Shown here one piece after another: positions 3,637 through 44,953 of a DNA stretch of 51,878 nucleotides. Origin of the DNA: a virus; the IMG/VR virus record IMGVR_UViG_3300050021_000074, positions 1 to 51,878 of that record; one strand, written 5' to 3'. The position numbers and the translations under genes were made by a program. Positions within the stretch are counted from its first letter, which is position 1. Each line of letters begins with the position of its first letter. Under the pieces are notes generated by a model. That model made no database searches and was not told the origin of the DNA. It saw nothing but the letters and a program-made list of their open reading frames with translations.

Positions 3637-6600
3637 TTATGCCGACTGACCGATGAACATGTTGTACATTGCCATCATTGAAGTATCCCCAGTTGTTATG
3701 ATGGTGGGTCCACTGTTACTACCCTTGCTATTGCTAGTGTTATTTATAGTGGTTCCGCTACCCCCGTTCATGTTCTGAAGAATGGATGTCTGGACAGACT
3801 TTTCTAATCTCTCCTTCTCGGTAGTCTTCTGTTTATCTTGGCTGGTCACTATCTGATGATCCATATGTGCCTTGACCAAGTCAGCAGGAGGAAGTACTTT
3901 CGGTGGAGCACTCGGGACTGGAGCCTTCTTAATTGGTGATGTCGCTGTCGGCGGAACTGCGACATCTGACTGTGCATCGATCTGTGCCGGGAGACTTGCT
4001 CCACTGTGTTTCGCAGTCGGTCGCGTACCGGCAATACGTGCATAGTCTGCTCGTCGTATTGCATCAGTTCTATCACTACTAAGACCAAGCGGGTCCGTAT
4101 CAGCGACCGATGAAGTTGCACTATTGACAGCATTATCAAAGGCATTGGGAGGAGTCGGGACCCCGCCATTTCCTGACTGGTTTAGATATTGATATGTCCT
4201 ATTGGTTCTATCATCCGCACCATTCGCACGTCCAGTGTTCTTGTTCGTCCCATTGATTGATTTAGAAACGTTCTCCAGATCACCGGCCTTCGCATATTTT
4301 CCGGCCCCACTCTTCTTCCAGAACATAATCGTAGCAGCTTGGTTGACTGCATCCTGCTCCATCAGTTCGGGATTCTTCACAAGGTCGATGCCCGGAAACT
4401 GTTGTTGAAGGTTCTTGGACATATCGGCATAGTTGCCCTTCCCGGTAAGCTGAACGAAGCCTCTTCCTTTGTAGCGAGCACCATCTCCCGGCATATTGTT
4501 TCCATTTTTTCCAGCGTAGTCTTTGTTTGCTTTGTCATCTGAGATGTTTTCTTTCACCGCACCGAACCCACCAGACTCATGACTCATCTGTCCCATGAAC
4601 GATGCATGTTCTTTTGGATCTGTGATGCCAGCAGCAGTAGCAGCCTGTGCCATCCCTGCCTCTCTCGTCTTCGCCAAAGCAGACCCCGGCTTAATCGATG
4701 ATGGTGATCCTATACCAAAACCCATGAATCGACTGGCCATGCTCGGCGTACCGGTCGCACCATTGCCGGTCGCACCATTGCCACCAATAAAGCCAGTATC
4801 CGTTTGGAGTGTCTGGATGGCATTGGTTCCTTTGGTTTTGTCTATGGTTTTTATCTGACCATCTACGAGCTTGTTCTGTCTATCGAATAGACTGCCTATC
4901 TTGCCACCAATTGTAGTGAACAATGCAGTGACCGCCATGTTTGTTGCAATTAAAGTTGCACCACCCACGACAGGAGCAAGAGGCGCACCAGCAACAGTGC
5001 CAGCAGTAGCAGTAGTAGCAGCAGCAGCCAGTGGCACACCAATCACGTCTCCAAGTGCAGAGCCTATTCCAGCACCAATCCCTGCACCTGCAGATTCACC
5101 ATTCCCCCCGCCATTGAGTTTGGTCACCCCACCGGCTATAGCAGCAGCCGCCAGTGGGTCCAAAGCAGCGGATTTCTTTCCTATGAACTTCAGGGCCGAT
5201 CCAACCATTCCTGTCTTGGTACCTGCAGTAGCAATTTCGGGAAGTACAGAAGCAGCTTCAGGAACCGCAGAATTGGTCAGCCCAGCGAGTGCATTGGTAC
5301 TCTTCGCCGCAGTAGGTGCCGCAGCCGACACAGCATCTATGGCAGGAGCCGCTACCTTCTCGGCAGTATTTCCTAACATCTTTCCAAGTGTCTTCCATCC
5401 CATCAATCCACCAAGACCGAACCCACCCACACCACCGGCCATCGCAGCACCACCAGTGACTACCTTTCGTGCGGTACCATTCTGATCAAGCCCCATTGCA
5501 TCTGATGCGGCCCCTCCTGCAAGGTATCCACCAGCCGTGCCGAGTACAGCCGTGCCGAGTCCAGCTTTTGTCGCACCACCTAGCTTCGCGGCAGTCTTGG
5601 CCATTCCAATGCCCTTACTGATCAATCCGCCCTTGGGAAGGAATTTACTAAGTAAGGTACCCGCCGCAGCACCCTCTAAATATTTTGAAATGGTACCGAA
5701 GAACCCATCGCCATCATCCTTCTTCTTACCGTCAGTCCCGTCAGTCGATGGAATTATAGATGGATTAGTCAGTCCCGCTGGAGTAGCAGTGTTCTTCCCA
5801 TATCCTTTCGATGCATTCGCGGCGTCATCCATCTTGTTCATCTGCTCGCGGTGATACGACTCAGTGTCGGCCAGCAATTTAGTTACCAGTGCAGTCTGTT
5901 CTTTGATAGCAACTACAATCGGATGTACATCAATCGGAGAAGGAGACGGACCTGTACCACCACCGAACTTCGCAGTTGGTGTGTCACCTATCTTCGTAGT
6001 AGGAACCATGCTAGAAGGATCTACATATGACGATCCCTTCCCAGATAGTGGATGGGCAGATATCTGTTCGCCTGTCTTCAGATGAAGAAGTGTCGGATGT
6101 ACATCAATCGGAGAAGGAGACGGACCTGTACCACCACCGAACTTCGCAGTTGGTGTGTCACCTATCTTCGTAGTAGGAACCATGCTAGAAGGATCTACAT
6201 ATGACGATCCCTTCCCAGATAGTGGATGGGCAGATATCTGTTCGCCTGTCTTCAGATGAAGAAGTGTCGGCCCATGGGTCTTACCACCCATCAATGAATG
6301 CGTGTTCTTGGTTACCGCAACCTGCTCAACACCACCGGGGTTATCCCCGACGAGGATGTGAGTGTTCTTCTTGGCTTTGAAGGAACCACCACCAGCAGCT
6401 TTGTTACGGTATCTGGTATTGCGTGCGTGCTTCCGTTGCTTGCTGGCTCCGACAACTTTTTTGATCGCCTTCGAAACATCTTCCGTGTGCTTGCCGATAA
6501 GACGTGGTTGAAGACGATCTGGTTGATTTGGTTTGCTACGCATACCAGTCAGTGCAGCATTGAGCCGCTTCTTAAATTCCCCGATTGAGTCGGTCTGTTT

Positions 6601-7284
6601 ATCATGTAATTCATGGAATTTGGCGATCTTTTTGTGCTGGTGATTGATTAGTGCAGAACCAGCAATGGCGAGTCCACTGGATTTCAGGAATCCACTGGCT
6701 AGAATTGCTGCGCCGCCTAGTGCAAATGAGCCAGCTCTGGTATGTGCTTTTAATGATCCCAGTTTACTCACACCCAGCTTATGTTTCAGGGATGTGCGTA
6801 CATCTTTGTGTAGGGTCTTTATATTCTTATGTGCATGTATCGCATTGCCGAGTATAAGGCCATGTTGATTTACTCTCGACTCCCGTGGCATATTAGTCTT
6901 CTTGAAACCAATATACCCATTAACCATCTTAGACATCTTCGGTATAAGGTTAATGAGACGAGATGGTAGGTATACTTCATCAAACGCATTCAATAGTGTG
7001 TAGATTTTTGAGCCATGTTTTGTGAGTAGATCGACTTCGGTCAACATGGCTTCATTATGTAACACTGTGTCGTATGATGTATCAGACACAATTGTTTGAT
7101 ACATATCATGCACTTCGTTAACGGAGTTATATATCTTATGTATCTTGTCTAGATTTTCTTGTGTACAATTCTTACTCGGTTTCTTATAGAACTTATATAA
7201 TTCCTTGGTGTAGCTGTTCTTCAGCTTTGTTAGGGTATGGGAAACTCGGGCAGATCTATCTACAAGCAGTTTATGTATATCCAT
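3637..7284 (-). CDS. Tail tape-measure protein with GH19 lysozyme domain
   Basis: A protein of 1215 residues, the longest in the window, placed between the gp26-type chaperone and the tube-cap gene as expected for a tape measure. The N-terminal third is helical and basic. Two identical 58-residue tandem repeats follow at about residues 340-455. The middle (about 530-800) is rich in Ala and Gly with hydrophobic stretches, typical of tape measures. Residues about 880-1030 form a GH19 glycosidase domain: the MGQMSHESGGF block carries the presumed catalytic Glu and is followed by GRGFVQLTGKGNY. This domain probably cuts peptidoglycan during DNA entry. An upstream in-frame ATG at 7359 overlaps the preceding endonuclease gene. 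I chose 7284 because AGGAG lies just before it. Confidence 0.85.
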   Translation of the reverse strand: MDIHKLLVDRSARVSHTLTKLKNSYTKELYKFYKKPSKNCTQENLDKIHKIYNSVNEVHDMYQTIVSDTSYDTVLHNEAMLTEVDLLTKHGSKIYTLLNAFDEVYLPSRLINLIPKMSKMVNGYIGFKKTNMPRESRVNQHGLILGNAIHAHKNIKTLHKDVRTSLKHKLGVSKLGSLKAHTRAGSFALGGAAILASGFLKSSGLAIAGSALINHQHKKIAKFHELHDKQTDSIGEFKKRLNAALTGMRSKPNQPDRLQPRLIGKHTEDVSKAIKKVVGASKQRKHARNTRYRNKAAGGGSFKAKKNTHILVGDNPGGVEQVAVTKNTHSLMGGKTHGPTLLHLKTGEQISAHPLSGKGSSYVDPSSMVPTTKIGDTPTAKFGGGTGPSPSPIDVHPTLLHLKTGEQISAHPLSGKGSSYVDPSSMVPTTKIGDTPTAKFGGGTGPSPSPIDVHPIVVAIKEQTALVTKLLADTESYHREQMNKMDDAANASKGYGKNTATPAGLTNPSIIPSTDGTDGKKKDDGDGFFGTISKYLEGAAAGTLLSKFLPKGGLISKGIGMAKTAAKLGGATKAGLGTAVLGTAGGYLAGGAASDAMGLDQNGTARKVVTGGAAMAGGVGGFGLGGLMGWKTLGKMLGNTAEKVAAPAIDAVSAAAPTAAKSTNALAGLTNSAVPEAASVLPEIATAGTKTGMVGSALKFIGKKSAALDPLAAAAIAGGVTKLNGGGNGESAGAGIGAGIGSALGDVIGVPLAAAATTATAGTVAGAPLAPVVGGATLIATNMAVTALFTTIGGKIGSLFDRQNKLVDGQIKTIDKTKGTNAIQTLQTDTGFIGGNGATGNGATGTPSMASRFMGFGIGSPSSIKPGSALAKTREAGMAQAATAAGITDPKEHASFMGQMSHESGGFGAVKENISDDKANKDYAGKNGNNMPGDGARYKGRGFVQLTGKGNYADMSKNLQQQFPGIDLVKNPELMEQDAVNQAATIMFWKKSGAGKYAKAGDLENVSKSINGTNKNTGRANGADDRTNRTYQYLNQSGNGGVPTPPNAFDNAVNSATSSVADTDPLGLSSDRTDAIRRADYARIAGTRPTAKHSGASLPAQIDAQSDVAVPPTATSPIKKAPVPSAPPKVLPPADLVKAHMDHQIVTSQDKQKTTEKERLEKSVQTSILQNMNGGSGTTINNTSNSKGSNSGPTIITTGDTSMMAMYNMFIGQSA
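3741..3748 (-). promoter_or_regulatory. Candidate late promoter (TATAAATA)
   Basis: A full match to the T4-type late box TATAAATA on the minus strand, inside the 3' end of the tape-measure gene and about 115 bases before the tube-cap start. It could give separate late expression of the baseplate genes. A chance match inside a coding region is possible. Confidence 0.4.
5920..6267 (-). repeat. Two tandem 174-bp repeats inside the tape-measure gene
   Basis: Copy one covers 5920-6093 and copy two 6094-6267. They appear identical at the DNA level and encode 58-residue repeats beginning PTLLHLKTGEQISAHPLSGK. The period is a multiple of three, so the frame is kept. A short third fragment (GPTLLHLKTGEQ-like start) overlaps the upstream border. 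Confidence 0.9.
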
Positions 7285-7351
7285 GGTACATCTCCTGATA
7301 ATCAAATGGGGAAGACGACAATCGCCCTCCCCATTATTTATTCCATTCGGT

Positions 7352-8236
7352 TTATCCAAGATCCTGATTGATTTCTTCCAGTGCCTTGGCTGCTTTCTTC
7401 ACCGCCCACTCAGCTCTCTTCCGTTCCCCGATGGCAATGCGTTCCTCTGGAGACTTTAGTCGGCCTTTATTGGCTTCTGAAATCTTCCGCCTATGTTCTT
7501 CTGTCTGCCGGTGGCCAAGGCTGTTCTGCATGCCTTTATGCTTCTCTGACATCATCTTCTTGGTTTCATCGCTGTGCTTCTTCCCACGATTACCATCTCC
7601 GATCTTCCGTCTGGTTTCTGAATTGTCGATGCCCAATTCCCGATCCCGCGCATATCTGGCTTTCTTTCCGTCTGAGATTGCATTCCCCCACTCTGGACCC
7701 CTCGTAACTCTTTCCATTGCCTTGCGCCGTTTCTGTTTTGTTTCTTCGGATGGAACATGTCCTTTGGCGAAATCATTCCCGGTCATTCGCTCTGATAGAT
7801 GCTTTATATGCTCTTCGGTGTGGAATGACTTTCCTTTACGAGTTAGAGACATATGTTCGCGTCGTTCGACCGATAGCTTCCTACCTTTATGTGCTTTTCC
7901 AATTCTATCTCGATGCTCTTGGGTGAGGTGCAATCCTCTCAACCCACCCTTTCCACCGACTCGAAGATTATATGTATCAGTTCGTGCAACGAACTCTTCA
8001 TCAACAATACTCGCTTCATATTGGTATGCATCGAGTTCTTCGGTAAACATTTGTAATACTACTCTACTGAAGCTCTCTCTTCCGTATTTGTAGATTGCAT
8101 ACTTGAGCAATTTACCCGATCCAATGTAACCATCTCCCATGTCATTGGTCGAGCGTTTACCTATATAGATCTTTCCATTGACATCATTTGTCGTCTTGTA
8201 TACAAAGTGGTATCTAAATTCTTGTCTGCTATACAT
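7352..8236 (-). CDS. GIY-YIG homing endonuclease with NUMOD3 repeats
   Basis: A protein of 294 residues. The GIY-YIG nuclease domain is at the N-terminus (FVYKTTNDVNGKIYIGK, about residues 11-27, then a GSGKLLKYAIYKYG helix). From about residue 100 it carries repeated NUMOD3 DNA-binding motifs such as LTQEHRDRIGKAHKG, HTEEHIKHLSERMTG, SDETKKMMSEKHKG and TEEHRRKISEANKG. Such free-standing enzymes cut related phage genomes to spread their own gene. It sits between the chaperone and tape-measure genes, splitting an otherwise conserved pair. The ATG at 8236 is preceded by GGAGG, which is buried in a 17-bp hairpin with a late promoter (see the separate entry). Confidence 0.92.
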   Translation of the reverse strand: MYSRQEFRYHFVYKTTNDVNGKIYIGKRSTNDMGDGYIGSGKLLKYAIYKYGRESFSRVVLQMFTEELDAYQYEASIVDEEFVARTDTYNLRVGGKGGLRGLHLTQEHRDRIGKAHKGRKLSVERREHMSLTRKGKSFHTEEHIKHLSERMTGNDFAKGHVPSEETKQKRRKAMERVTRGPEWGNAISDGKKARYARDRELGIDNSETRRKIGDGNRGKKHSDETKKMMSEKHKGMQNSLGHRQTEEHRRKISEANKGRLKSPEERIAIGERKRAEWAVKKAAKALEEINQDLG

Positions 8237-8307: not shown

Positions 8308-9176
8308 CTATGCGACTCCCTTTTCCTCACGATAAGCCTGTATGGATTGGTAGTAATATATTTCCAACTCCATGGGGGACATTACATCCAGTTCCAGAGG
8401 ACTCCAATTCATAAAACGTTTCATGAAGAAGTACATCTTGTAGAAGTCCCGGAGTGTGATGTCGTGGATTAGAAAGCCAAAAAACGGTATAGGTCACCGA
8501 ACTGGACTTCGCTTTCCTTCTTGCACTTTCCACACTTGATGGTCTTTTCGAGATAGATCTCAGCCCCGGCAGCAGATATCTTATCACGCATTGCTCCGAA
8601 ATCGACTGAAGAGAGTTGGTCGATGAACTCAATAAGTTCTGTTTCGGTAAATGCATCGAATACCTCGCCCTTATACACGATTGAGTCGATGGACTTAATG
8701 ACGAAGTGGTAATTGAACTCACTCGACTTGAGGTATGTAGTTGTGAGATGATCGTATACTTGGAAAGGGACTTCCTTGATCGCCACATTCAGATCGCCAT
8801 TGACCTTGATCATTGACGCATCGAACTTCTTAGACTGGAGATTCTTATCCACAGATACATCGTCGCTCAGTGGAAACCCACAGTGCGAGCAGTTGTACGA
8901 GAATTCTAGCTTGCTTCCCTTGGACATCTTACGGATCTGAGCGATCAGGTAGACATAATCAGTATTGGATAGTGTATCGAACAGCGAGACGTTATCTACA
9001 CATCTCTTAATGAACTTCACGATCTCTCGTCTGATGGCGAACTCATCATCGACACCTTCGGTAGCGAACAGGAGATCCTTTTCTTCCTTGACTCGCCATG
9101 GTTTGATTCCTATTTTCTTACCGGACAACAGTTCGGTTGAGCTGAAACTATCTTGATTCATCTGTGGTAATGCCAT
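8308..9176 (-). CDS. gp26-like -1 frameshift product, 289 residues
   Basis: If ribosomes slip back one base on T-TTT-TTG (8478-8484), reading continues in the -1 frame from GGC at 8478 to TAG at 8308. This adds 56 residues, GFLIHDITLRDFYKMYFFMK and onwards to ...YREEKGVA, giving 289 in total. The extension has normal codon use and amphipathic helices. It has no good start codon or ribosome site of its own: the first ATG in that frame is 15 codons in. Tail chaperone pairs made by a -1 slip just before the tape-measure gene are known from lambda (G/GT) and P2 (E/E', the same T-TTT-TTG heptamer). The sequence shows the heptamer and the open -1 frame. That it is used is inference. Confidence 0.7.
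8469..9176 (-). CDS. 26: Tail assembly protein gp26-like (tape-measure chaperone, 0-frame product)
   Basis: A protein of 235 residues that fits the T4 baseplate family containing gp26. It has two CxxC pairs, C96/C99 (YNCSHCG) and C215/C218 (IKCGKCKKE), that could bind one zinc. The gene lies upstream of the tape measure, separated only by a homing endonuclease. This is the position of tail assembly chaperones in other phages. The last codons before the stop read CGT TTT TTG GCT TTC TAA and form a T-TTT-TTG slippery site (8478-8484). A -1 shift there would add 56 residues; see the frameshift entry. The start at 9176 has AAGGAG upstream. Confidence 0.75.
   Translation of the reverse strand: MALPQMNQDSFSSTELLSGKKIGIKPWRVKEEKDLLFATEGVDDEFAIRREIVKFIKRCVDNVSLFDTLSNTDYVYLIAQIRKMSKGSKLEFSYNCSHCGFPLSDDVSVDKNLQSKKFDASMIKVNGDLNVAIKEVPFQVYDHLTTTYLKSSEFNYHFVIKSIDSIVYKGEVFDAFTETELIEFIDQLSSVDFGAMRDKISAAGAEIYLEKTIKCGKCKKESEVQFGDLYRFLAF
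8478..8484 (-). promoter_or_regulatory. -1 slippery heptamer T TTT TTG
   Basis: The heptamer is in the right register: 0-frame codons CGT TTT TTG. It lies 7 bases before the 0-frame stop (TAA, 8471-8469). No strong downstream pseudoknot was obvious by eye. Confidence 0.7.
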
Positions 9177-9227: not shown

Positions 9228-9902
9228 TTATGAACTTTTCGATTGTGGTAGTGACAATACCTCATGAGAAGTGTACTTGAACTTCACAGTAGTTAGTGCC
9301 AATGTTTCTCCGTTATCGCTCACATCGAATGGAATGGCAGATACATCAAATGGGACCAGTTCCCGGAACACTTCATATCGTTCTGCCTGACCTTGAAAGT
9401 TCAATGGGTAGACATGAATTGAGGGACACATAACGTCATCGTAGTATGATCGTGCGTATGTGACAGAACTAAGTGCGGACACCATCCACTCGAAGAAGAA
9501 GTGACGCATCTTTAGATCAGAGGACTCCAGAAAGGAAATGGACAAGTCATCATACATCCAGTTCTCGAAATAGTATCGAGGCCGCATATCAACTTCTTTA
9601 GATATGACCCCCAGTCTCAGTGACGGGCAATCAACCTTGAATACATTCCATGCTAAGAAGTTTGATCCCCATCCTCCACCGGATGAGCTGTCCCCGGAGA
9701 TTTCATTGTTGTGACCCAAGCTCGGGAACAGTTTCTGTAGGTTGAGGACGTCGATCATACAGACGAATCGGTTGAGGCGCAGGATGCCATTCGACCTTGG
9801 GGTTCTCCCATTGGTAGTCGAGTCATCCATGATCCCGTTCACGATGAACTCTTCGATGTTCATGTACTCGGAGAAGTCCAAGAAATTCGTATTCTTTGCC
9901 AT
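9228..9902 (-). CDS. Tail tube-like protein (gp19/gp54 fold), paralogue 1
   Basis: A protein of 224 residues. Its core follows the gp19 pattern: an N-terminal LNRFVCMIDVL strand, VFKVDCPSLRLG (the P-x-L segment), a YDDLSISFLESSDLKMRHFFFEWMVSAL block, and a C-terminal VPFDVSAIPFDVSDNGETLALTTVKFKYTSHEV strand pair. In this family the F-x-x-W helix after a TVTFL or SISFL strand is typical. Two further paralogues follow upstream. One of the three should form the main tube; the others may be initiator or terminator rings. Gene spacing is 3 bases from the next gene. Confidence 0.65.
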   Translation of the reverse strand: MAKNTNFLDFSEYMNIEEFIVNGIMDDSTTNGRTPRSNGILRLNRFVCMIDVLNLQKLFPSLGHNNEISGDSSSGGGWGSNFLAWNVFKVDCPSLRLGVISKEVDMRPRYYFENWMYDDLSISFLESSDLKMRHFFFEWMVSALSSVTYARSYYDDVMCPSIHVYPLNFQGQAERYEVFRELVPFDVSAIPFDVSDNGETLALTTVKFKYTSHEVLSLPQSKSS

Positions 9903-9905
9903 TGT

Positions 9906-10607
9906 CTAGTCCGTTCCGTCAGAGAGTATTTGGTAGGTTGAGTAACAGAACGTTGCCGGGAACTCCACGATCTGCCCATCACTGTCCTGTGACAGTTGGA
10001 TCTCTCCGATGGCATGTGGCCAGACTCCGGTGAACTCAGCCGCGAAGATGGTATTGAAGTTGTTGTCGAGCTGTCTGATGATCAGTTTGCAAAGCTGTGT
10101 CGTAGTCACCTTGTGATAGAAGTTGCTGTCGGTGTCATAGACAATGTGTTTGAGCCATGAGTGCAGGAATTTTCTCTGGGTATACTCATCGTCACACATG
10201 AGTGTCATCTGGAGATCGCCGAAGTTCTGACTGATGGGGACAAATACACGTTGACCACATCGCTTGATCTCTTGCTTCCCGATATCGAACGATGGGATGT
10301 TGACTGTCTTCGCGGTCATCTCAGTCATCTTTTTGGCTTCGTCTGACATGAATGAGTAGGTATTCCCAAACACTTTTGGGTACACGAACTCGACCTTGTA
10401 CAGGTTCGGTCTGGCGAAGTCATTGAATGAGTTCAGCAGGTAGTCAACATGGAACTGCCGTTGGTCGGCAATGTCCGCATACTGACTTACAAACTCACCC
10501 ACATTGGAACGTGGTCCCGGCCATACTTCAGTCGAAGTCTTCTCGCTGGTGACTCCCGGCATCGGTCGGGAGCCGCTCGCAGTAGATCTTCCTCCACTCT
10601 TTGTCAT
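9906..10607 (-). CDS. Tail tube-like protein (gp19/gp54 fold), paralogue 2
   Basis: A protein of 233 residues. After a Ser/Gly-rich N-terminus it shows the tube pattern: ARPNLYKVEFVYP, TAKTVNIPSFDIGKQEIKRCGQRVFVPISQNFGDLQMTLMCDDEYTQRKFLHSWLKHI, and a final IGEIQLSQDSDGQIVEFPATFCYSTYQIL. The stretch from the strand IPSF through the DLQMTLMCD strand to the HSWL helix is the family core. AGGGG precedes the ATG. The longer N-terminus compared with paralogue 3 suggests a specialised ring protein rather than the main tube, but this is inference. Confidence 0.65.
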   Translation of the reverse strand: MTKSGGRSTASGSRPMPGVTSEKTSTEVWPGPRSNVGEFVSQYADIADQRQFHVDYLLNSFNDFARPNLYKVEFVYPKVFGNTYSFMSDEAKKMTEMTAKTVNIPSFDIGKQEIKRCGQRVFVPISQNFGDLQMTLMCDDEYTQRKFLHSWLKHIVYDTDSNFYHKVTTTQLCKLIIRQLDNNFNTIFAAEFTGVWPHAIGEIQLSQDSDGQIVEFPATFCYSTYQILSDGTD

Positions 10608-10610
10608 CGT

Positions 10611-11195
10611 TTACCCCTGTGGATCTGCTTGCACTGTTCCAGAATACCCATCTTCCGGTTCCCAATATGAGTATGAGAACGTGACATTGAATGTTTCGAC
10701 AGTGTCGTTCGCTTCCATACTCAATTCGATCTGGTCTACAGTCTTGGGGAACACATGTCTGAATCGATATCCGGCAAGCATAGTTGCATTCCCATCGGAG
10801 TCTAGGTCAGTCCCGAGTTGGCGCACTATGATGTAGACCCCATCGAAGAGGTCTTTCATATATCCCTTGATCCCATTGGATCTGTCATTGATCAATTGTG
10901 TCCATGCCTCGAACAGACTTCGAATATCCCAGTCACTGTCGTTCAGGAAAGTAACAGTGAGATCTTGGATGACCTCACTGCCGGGAAGTTTGTATTCCAT
11001 TCCATAGAACTTGATCGCAATCTCATTGAACGATCTGTCGGGGATGGACGCACTCTGCACATGCATCACCAATTTGGTGCCGTCAATGTAGTCGCTGATG
11101 TTGATAACCGCTGGAGGTTGAATGATTACTTCGAACCTGTTTGGTCGCACCACGTTTCCAAGATTGGTTTTGAATGTGTCGAGGTCAAGAGACAT
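10611..11195 (-). CDS. 19: Tail tube protein, gp19-like, paralogue 3
   Basis: A protein of 194 residues and the closest of the three to T4 gp19 in length and pattern. It begins VVRPNRFEVIIQPP, then VMHVQSASIPDRSFNEIAIKFYGMEYKLPGSEVIQDLTVTFLNDSDWDIRSLFEAWTQLI, where R-P-N-R-F-E-V, A-S-I-P and the TVTFLND...R..FE.W block are hallmarks. The C-terminus has VFPKTVDQIELSMEANDTVETFNVTFSYSYWEP, the last strands of the ring. It probably builds the inner tail tube. AAAGGA precedes the ATG. Confidence 0.75.
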   Translation of the reverse strand: MSLDLDTFKTNLGNVVRPNRFEVIIQPPAVINISDYIDGTKLVMHVQSASIPDRSFNEIAIKFYGMEYKLPGSEVIQDLTVTFLNDSDWDIRSLFEAWTQLINDRSNGIKGYMKDLFDGVYIIVRQLGTDLDSDGNATMLAGYRFRHVFPKTVDQIELSMEANDTVETFNVTFSYSYWEPEDGYSGTVQADPQG

Positions 11196-44513: not shown

Positions 44514-44801
44514 ATGGCGAGGATCACGCTGAAGCAGCCGAACGGGAAGTACGCAATCTTCACCACGATCTGCGATGGGTTCATCATCTCCAATGCAACT
44601 CGGGAAGAGCTGATCGCCGATCTGGTGAAGGAAGCGACTGAGAAGATCACCGAGGACATCAACGAGGTCTGTGATGCTCTGGACGAGGGAAAGCGTTCCT
44701 TCAGGAACCACTCGACCATGACGTGGGACTATGCGGTCGAACGCTGCATCCAGATCCACGGAGAGCTGGGATTCGATCCCAACGAGGTGACGCCATGCTA
44801 G
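44514..44801 (+). CDS. Hypothetical protein
   Basis: A protein of 95 residues (MARITLKQPNGKYAIFTTICDGFIISNATREELIADLVKEATEKITEDINEVCDAL...). A beta hairpin and helix layout common in small phage proteins. GAGG stands 10 bases before the ATG. Overlaps the next gene by 7 bases. Confidence 0.62.
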   Translation: MARITLKQPNGKYAIFTTICDGFIISNATREELIADLVKEATEKITEDINEVCDALDEGKRSFRNHSTMTWDYAVERCIQIHGELGFDPNEVTPC

Positions 44802-44953
44802 TCAAGATGCGGATGTTCGATGCGGCTCGGTTCCATAGTCACGACTTCGAATTCAGATTCAATGCGTGGCTGGGCGAATGTGGGATCGATCCCAAGTCCA
44901 TCTTCCAGATCGATACGATGGAGTGCCGGTACCGAGTCTGGTACAGACAGTAA
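44795..44953 (+). CDS. Small hypothetical protein
   Basis: A protein of 52 residues (MLVKMRMFDAARFHSHDFEFRFNAWLGECGIDPKSIFQ...). GAGGTGACGCC precedes the ATG, which overlaps the previous stop. Function unknown. Confidence 0.55.
   Translation: MLVKMRMFDAARFHSHDFEFRFNAWLGECGIDPKSIFQIDTMECRYRVWYRQ

Follow-up and report, generated by a model that had tools for sequence, protein, structure and literature searches.

We identified in a genome fragment of an uncultivated virus (G000) a gp26-family gene that in all likelihood encodes a tail chaperone in two forms, a short one (TAC-N) and a long one (TAC-NC) made by −1 ribosomal frameshifting, as in the lambda G/GT pair. The reading frames, the slip site and its conservation were observed directly; that ribosomes slip, how efficiently they do so and that the products act as chaperones is inferred. 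The window, as we call the whole stretch of DNA analyzed, is a 51,878-base virus record that carries its tail module on the minus strand.

Slip Site and Reading Frames in the Window

The gene (8469–9176, minus strand) encodes a 235-residue TAC-N-like protein matching PF12322 (T4_baseplate, E = 3.7e-29) and phrog_150 (E = 2.1e-30). It starts at an ATG preceded by AAGGAG (SD pairing of −8.5 kcal/mol) and ends at a TAA stop (8469–8471, minus strand). Read directly on the minus strand, its last codons (GAC CTA TAC CGT TTT TTG GCT TTC TAA) hold the heptamer T_TTT_TTG (8478–8484, minus strand) in the exact X_XXY_YYZ register that tandem −1 slippage needs, with 6 bases separating the heptamer from the stop. 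The −1 frame is open from 25 nt before the end of the gp26 gene and closes at a stop at 8308–8310, delimiting a gp51-like (TAC-C-like) extension of 56 codons plus the stop (8308–8478, minus strand) that is reached only via a −1 slip. Translation of this frame yields 56 residues, GFLIHDITLRDFYKMYFFMKRFMNWSPLELDVMSPMELEIYYYQSIQAYREEKGVA, and a long product of 233 + 56 = 289 residues. The original prediction had placed T-TTT-TTG in exact register near the gp26 stop and had proposed both the 56-residue extension and the 289-residue form, all of which agree with these readings. It had also described the extension as lacking a start codon of its own, and this holds for the conserved part, because the earliest ATG, GTG or TTG in the frame is an ATG that lies 14 codons past the slip and has a weak SD (−4.0 kcal/mol, versus −8.5 kcal/mol at the gp26 start).

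The window contains 4 copies of TTTTTTG versus 6.7 expected; the string is thus not enriched, and the argument cannot rest on its count. Given the residues Arg-Phe-Leu, T_TTT_TT(A/G) has a probability of about 0.006 under the codon usage of the window, as TTT accounts for only 18% of the Phe codons there. The ORFs of the window contain 12 in-register heptamers, and in only 2 of these does the −1 frame run more than 90 nt beyond the ORF stop. A 56-codon open run is unremarkable by itself, as 22% of random frames reach that length. The reality of the extension rests on homology rather than on the length of the open frame. The extension matched phrog_634 (“baseplate hub assembly catalyst”, the T4 gp51 family) with an E-value of 3.1e-6 and a hidden Markov model (HMM) of the extensions of 188 other phages with an E-value of 7.6e-8, when the best of 2000 shuffled sequences scored 0.045.

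A second in-register heptamer with a long −1 run, GGGAAAG, is present on the plus strand (44514–44801), and the −1 frame passes the stop of its ORF into an overlapping ORF (44723–44953). We considered this heptamer as another recoding site and rejected it as probably due to chance; the overlapping ORF has its own GTG start.

Conservation of the Slip Site Among gp26 Relatives

We collected gp26 relatives at 213 loci in phage records, viral contigs and genome contigs. In 208 of them, gp26 has an in-frame T_TTT_TTN close before its stop, and gp51 follows in the −1 frame. Thus, the conserved TTTTTTG-type site and −1 frame anticipated for gp26-family genes were found, and the contrary pattern, loss of the heptamer with decay of the −1 frame, is not what these loci show. 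Of the clusters formed at 70%, 50% and 40% identity, 99 of 103, 52 of 55 and 25 of 28, respectively, contained the in-register T_TTT_TTN. Isolates carrying the heptamer include phages of Synechococcus, Prochlorococcus, Pelagibacter, Sinorhizobium, Rhizobium, Desulfovibrio, Vibrio and Aeromonas. The gp26 protein of the window is less than 30% identical to its named relatives, and the Desulfovibrio gp26, used as a query, matched no viral contigs. A single alignment of all 13 gp26 proteins, a diverse set, was too divergent for scanning and was replaced by a six-sequence alignment; another one (A4), which combined gp26 and extension rows, was discarded as misaligned.

The last codon of the heptamer is TTC in 157 loci, TTT in 46–47, TTG in 2 and TTA in 2–3. 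The residue before the Phe differs (Ser, Asp, Asn, Ala, Thr or Arg), yet in all of these loci its codon has T as the third base and TTT encodes the first Phe. Elsewhere in the same genes, the pattern xxT TTT TTN was found in 17 of 201 x-Phe-(Phe/Leu) triples. For the amino acids present, the pattern in 99 clusters has a joint probability of about 1e-40 if the clusters are treated as independent, which they are only in part. Codon choice at the slip site, as it appears from these comparisons, is far from chance.

Among the exceptions, two loci of the Ackermannviridae type (L095, 2540–2575; L096, 3005–3040) keep the gp51 frame at −1 and have no run of six T's, reading ATT TTC ATT TAA or CTT TTC AAG TAA in its place. 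Another locus (L215) reads ACG TTT TTT ATA at the site, and in L196 both the gp26 end and the heptamer are lost and gp51 still follows. Lastly, gp26 and gp51 are fused in frame in L059 (2501–3394), on a contig of 236 kb with a single PF12322 copy. This locus is either a natural fusion, in which frameshifting was lost, or the product of a homopolymer error.

Relationship of gp26 to gp51 and Possible Link to Tail Chaperones

The original interpretation was supported but missed two elements of the locus, the assignment of the extension to the gp51 family and a homing endonuclease gene next to it. The first of these relates the window to the two T4 proteins. In T4, gp51 has the whole PF12322 (gp26) domain in residues 1–201 and the phrog_634 tail after it; gp26 has the domain and no tail. 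The T4 genes 26 and 51 are separate and divergent; RB43 encodes the long and short forms in adjacent genes. Because T4 gp51 consists of a gp26 domain plus the tail, the two T4 proteins represent the same pair encoded in separate genes. T4 thus uses two genes for what the window and its relatives very probably make from one by frameshifting. A review of the T4 tail classes gp26 and gp51 among the hub assembly chaperones and describes gp51 as an essential protein of unknown function (PMC3004832).

AlphaFold2 modeled the window gp26 with a pLDDT of 89.7 and the fusion encoded by L059 with a pLDDT of 84.8, the C-terminus of the latter being helical and of lower confidence. When the models were compared with the PDB using Foldseek, the highest probabilities were for 2OB9 (0.54) and 3KLU (0.41) with the window gp26 and for 3FGX and 2OB9 with the fusion, at E-values that were not significant for either model. 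All three structures are tail assembly chaperones (PMC9603447). The weak resemblance of the predicted gp26 fold to known tail assembly chaperones is suggestive only, because the E-values of the chaperone matches were about 1.4–2.5; searching the PDB with a sequence profile gave no relative.

Putative genes for other tail components flank the gp26-family gene. Three consecutive tail-tube-like genes of phrog_45 (9228–9902, 9906–10607 and 10611–11195, minus strand) precede the gp26-family gene and are perhaps a tube protein and its duplicated paralogues. On the other side lies a long Gly/Ala-rich ORF (3637–7290, minus strand) that we annotate from its position and length as a putative tape measure protein; this ORF had no match to a tape-measure family and was assigned by position. 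It carries a GH19-type hydrolase/endolysin domain near residues 868–1035 (PF00182, 2.2e-7; phrog_181, 2.8e-40) and two tandem copies of a stretch that begins TLLHLKTGEQISAHPLSGKG. The claim that the chaperone gene precedes the tape measure thus fits the long ORF by position and length, but a GIY-YIG/NUMOD3 homing endonuclease ORF (7352–8236, minus strand; PF07460, 5.7e-13; phrog_314, 8e-46) intervenes between the two, outside the frameshift signal.

Candidate Stimulators Around the Heptamer

An SD-like GGTGA (8494–8498, minus strand) ends 9 nt upstream of the window heptamer and pairs at −6.0 kcal/mol with an anti-SD that may not be exactly that of the host. We regard this weak SD-like element as a possible stimulator. 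Among the relatives, SD-like motifs (GAGG, GGAGG, AGGA) ending 8–10 nt upstream of the heptamer are enriched, and the mean upstream pairing was −6.16 kcal/mol versus −5.02 kcal/mol for synonymous resamplings, 0 of 300 of which were as strong.

Downstream, the window itself has no significant hairpin (z = −0.32). The cyanophage-type subset (61 distinct sequences) has a covarying hairpin starting 5–6 nt past the heptamer. In this subset, 91.4% of the hairpin cells pair, versus 26–47% after a shift by 1–3 columns, and 32 cells carry double changes compared to 10.9 in shuffled data (0 of 500 shuffles as many). In the strongest pair, one partner is the third, synonymous position of an Ala codon and the other is the second position of a Glu, Ala or Val codon; the pair was T-A in 30, G-C in 14 and A-T in 13 of the 61 sequences. 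When we looked for independent compensatory changes on the best tree, we counted at least 6 changes of pair state, with no tested pair showing the opposite; few of the branches were supported and the result was below significance.

Both the SD-like element and the hairpin would act as stimulators of the slip. We advance tentatively, as a proposal that could well prove wrong, that the chaperone site of T4-like phages is a complete three-part signal of the dnaX kind, composed of an SD-like element at 8–10 nt, T_TTT_TTN and, in marine cyanophages, a hairpin 5–6 nt downstream in which covariation between synonymous Ala third bases and Glu/Ala/Val changes maintains the pairing. Such an architecture may be undescribed so far. 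If the proposal is true, the signal would tune the ratio of short to long forms, which T4 gets from two separate genes.

Alternatives to Ribosomal Slippage

The annotation of gp51 as its own gene in many cyanophage records raises the question of whether the extension could be a separate small gene, started by coupling or reinitiation after the gp26 stop, with the heptamer being merely two conserved Phe codons. A separate gp51 start is feasible in 12 of 204 loci, where the stop and start overlap as TAATG, TGATG or TAGTG, and both routes may therefore coexist in those loci. In the window, however, conserved sequence comes before the earliest start codon, and across nearly all relatives the distance of this codon from the slip ranges from 1 to 33 codons. 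An SD precedes it in just 7% of cases, compared to an internal background of 17% and to 38% for gp26 starts. Nor would a separate start account for the choice of Phe codon and of the preceding third base, which are fixed far beyond what the amino acids need. Further, T4 gp51 holds the whole gp26 domain, and the working form in T4 is thus the fusion. Relatives with a separately started extension had been named as evidence against frameshifting; some loci do have the TAATG or TGATG overlaps, but these keep the heptamer, and T4 and RB43 encode the fused long form separately. On balance, we consider a separate gene very unlikely.

Slippage of the RNA polymerase on the T6 run is marginally less probable still. 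The run is a homopolymer, like known sites of transcriptional slippage, and mRNAs that gain or lose a base there would be read as the fusion. Six T's are, however, short for polymerase slippage, and the X_XXY_YYZ phase is maintained in 208 of the 213 loci. Two further features, the SD-like element before the run and the covarying hairpin, also fit a ribosomal event. An assembly error in the homopolymer, which would make the true gene one continuous long protein as in the contig with both parts fused in frame (L059), can be dismissed for practical purposes, as the identical frame break occurs at the same bases in 208 loci, including isolate genomes that already refute it.

Ribosomal frameshifting is thus the reading that we carry forward. 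Most ribosomes would terminate at the TAA and release the 235-residue gp26-like short form (TAC-N), and a minority would slip by −1 on T_TTT_TTG and continue into the 289-residue long form (TAC-NC) with its gp51-type helical tail. If the products act as gpG and gpGT do in lambda, the tape measure protein would be coated by numerous short chaperones and a small number of long ones, and the tail of the long form may help recruit components of the tail tube or the baseplate hub. Binding of the tape measure by either form is, likewise, proposed from the lambda model.

Comparison With Known Systems

The existence of short and long tail assembly chaperones in T4-like phages is credited, in two later papers (PMC10885494; PMC12846349), to Vladimirov, Gautam and Davidson (Virology 566:9-15, 2022). 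As relayed there, this work described poly-T slip signals in the TAC-N genes of T4-like phages (PMC12846349) and a separate short gene plus a fused long gene in some of them (PMC10885494). The original prediction saw in the window an extension of the G/GT logic to the gp26 family; conservation in 208 of 213 loci supports that logic, but its extension to T4-like phages is not new because, by these accounts, it was published in 2022. The window is very probably a divergent new example of a kind of chaperone frameshifting that was already known. Compared to the T4-like chaperones of that study, the window phage is distant from every named phage (gp26 less than 30% identical) and has a homing endonuclease adjoining the gene. 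Our additions to the earlier description are this divergent example, the test of conservation in a large set of loci, and the SD-like element and hairpin as likely stimulators. The results also point to a systematic annotation error, as the cyanophage-like gp51, recorded as its own gene or missed, is very probably the frameshifted tail of gp26. T4 gp26 and gp51, traditionally described as hub proteins whose role is uncertain, look like a split pair of short and long tail assembly chaperones. Moreover, the more than 200 natural variants of one slip signal are a resource on how the heptamer, the SD-like element and the hairpin set the ratio of the two forms.

The heptamer of the window is also that of P2, where gpE/E' uses T_TTT_TTG and a −1 extension before the tape measure; the heptamer and the extension are alike and the protein families are different. 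The heptamer of lambda is G_GGA_AAG. In lambda, gpG is a short chaperone and a −1 slip near the 3' end of its gene gives the C-terminally extended gpGT, which acts on the tape measure (PMC5009743). The window resembles this pair in its short/long layout, between proteins with no sequence similarity shown. Its proteins are, by contrast, homologous to those of T4 genes 26 and 51, which are two separate divergent genes, and the end of T4 gp26 has no in-register slip site. The signal itself has a parallel in E. coli dnaX, which combines an SD-like element about 10 nt upstream, the heptamer A_AAA_AAG and a downstream stem-loop. Both systems have an SD-like element at this spacing and a heptamer, the sequence of which differs; the stem-loop is found only in the cyanophage subset and the window has no clear one.
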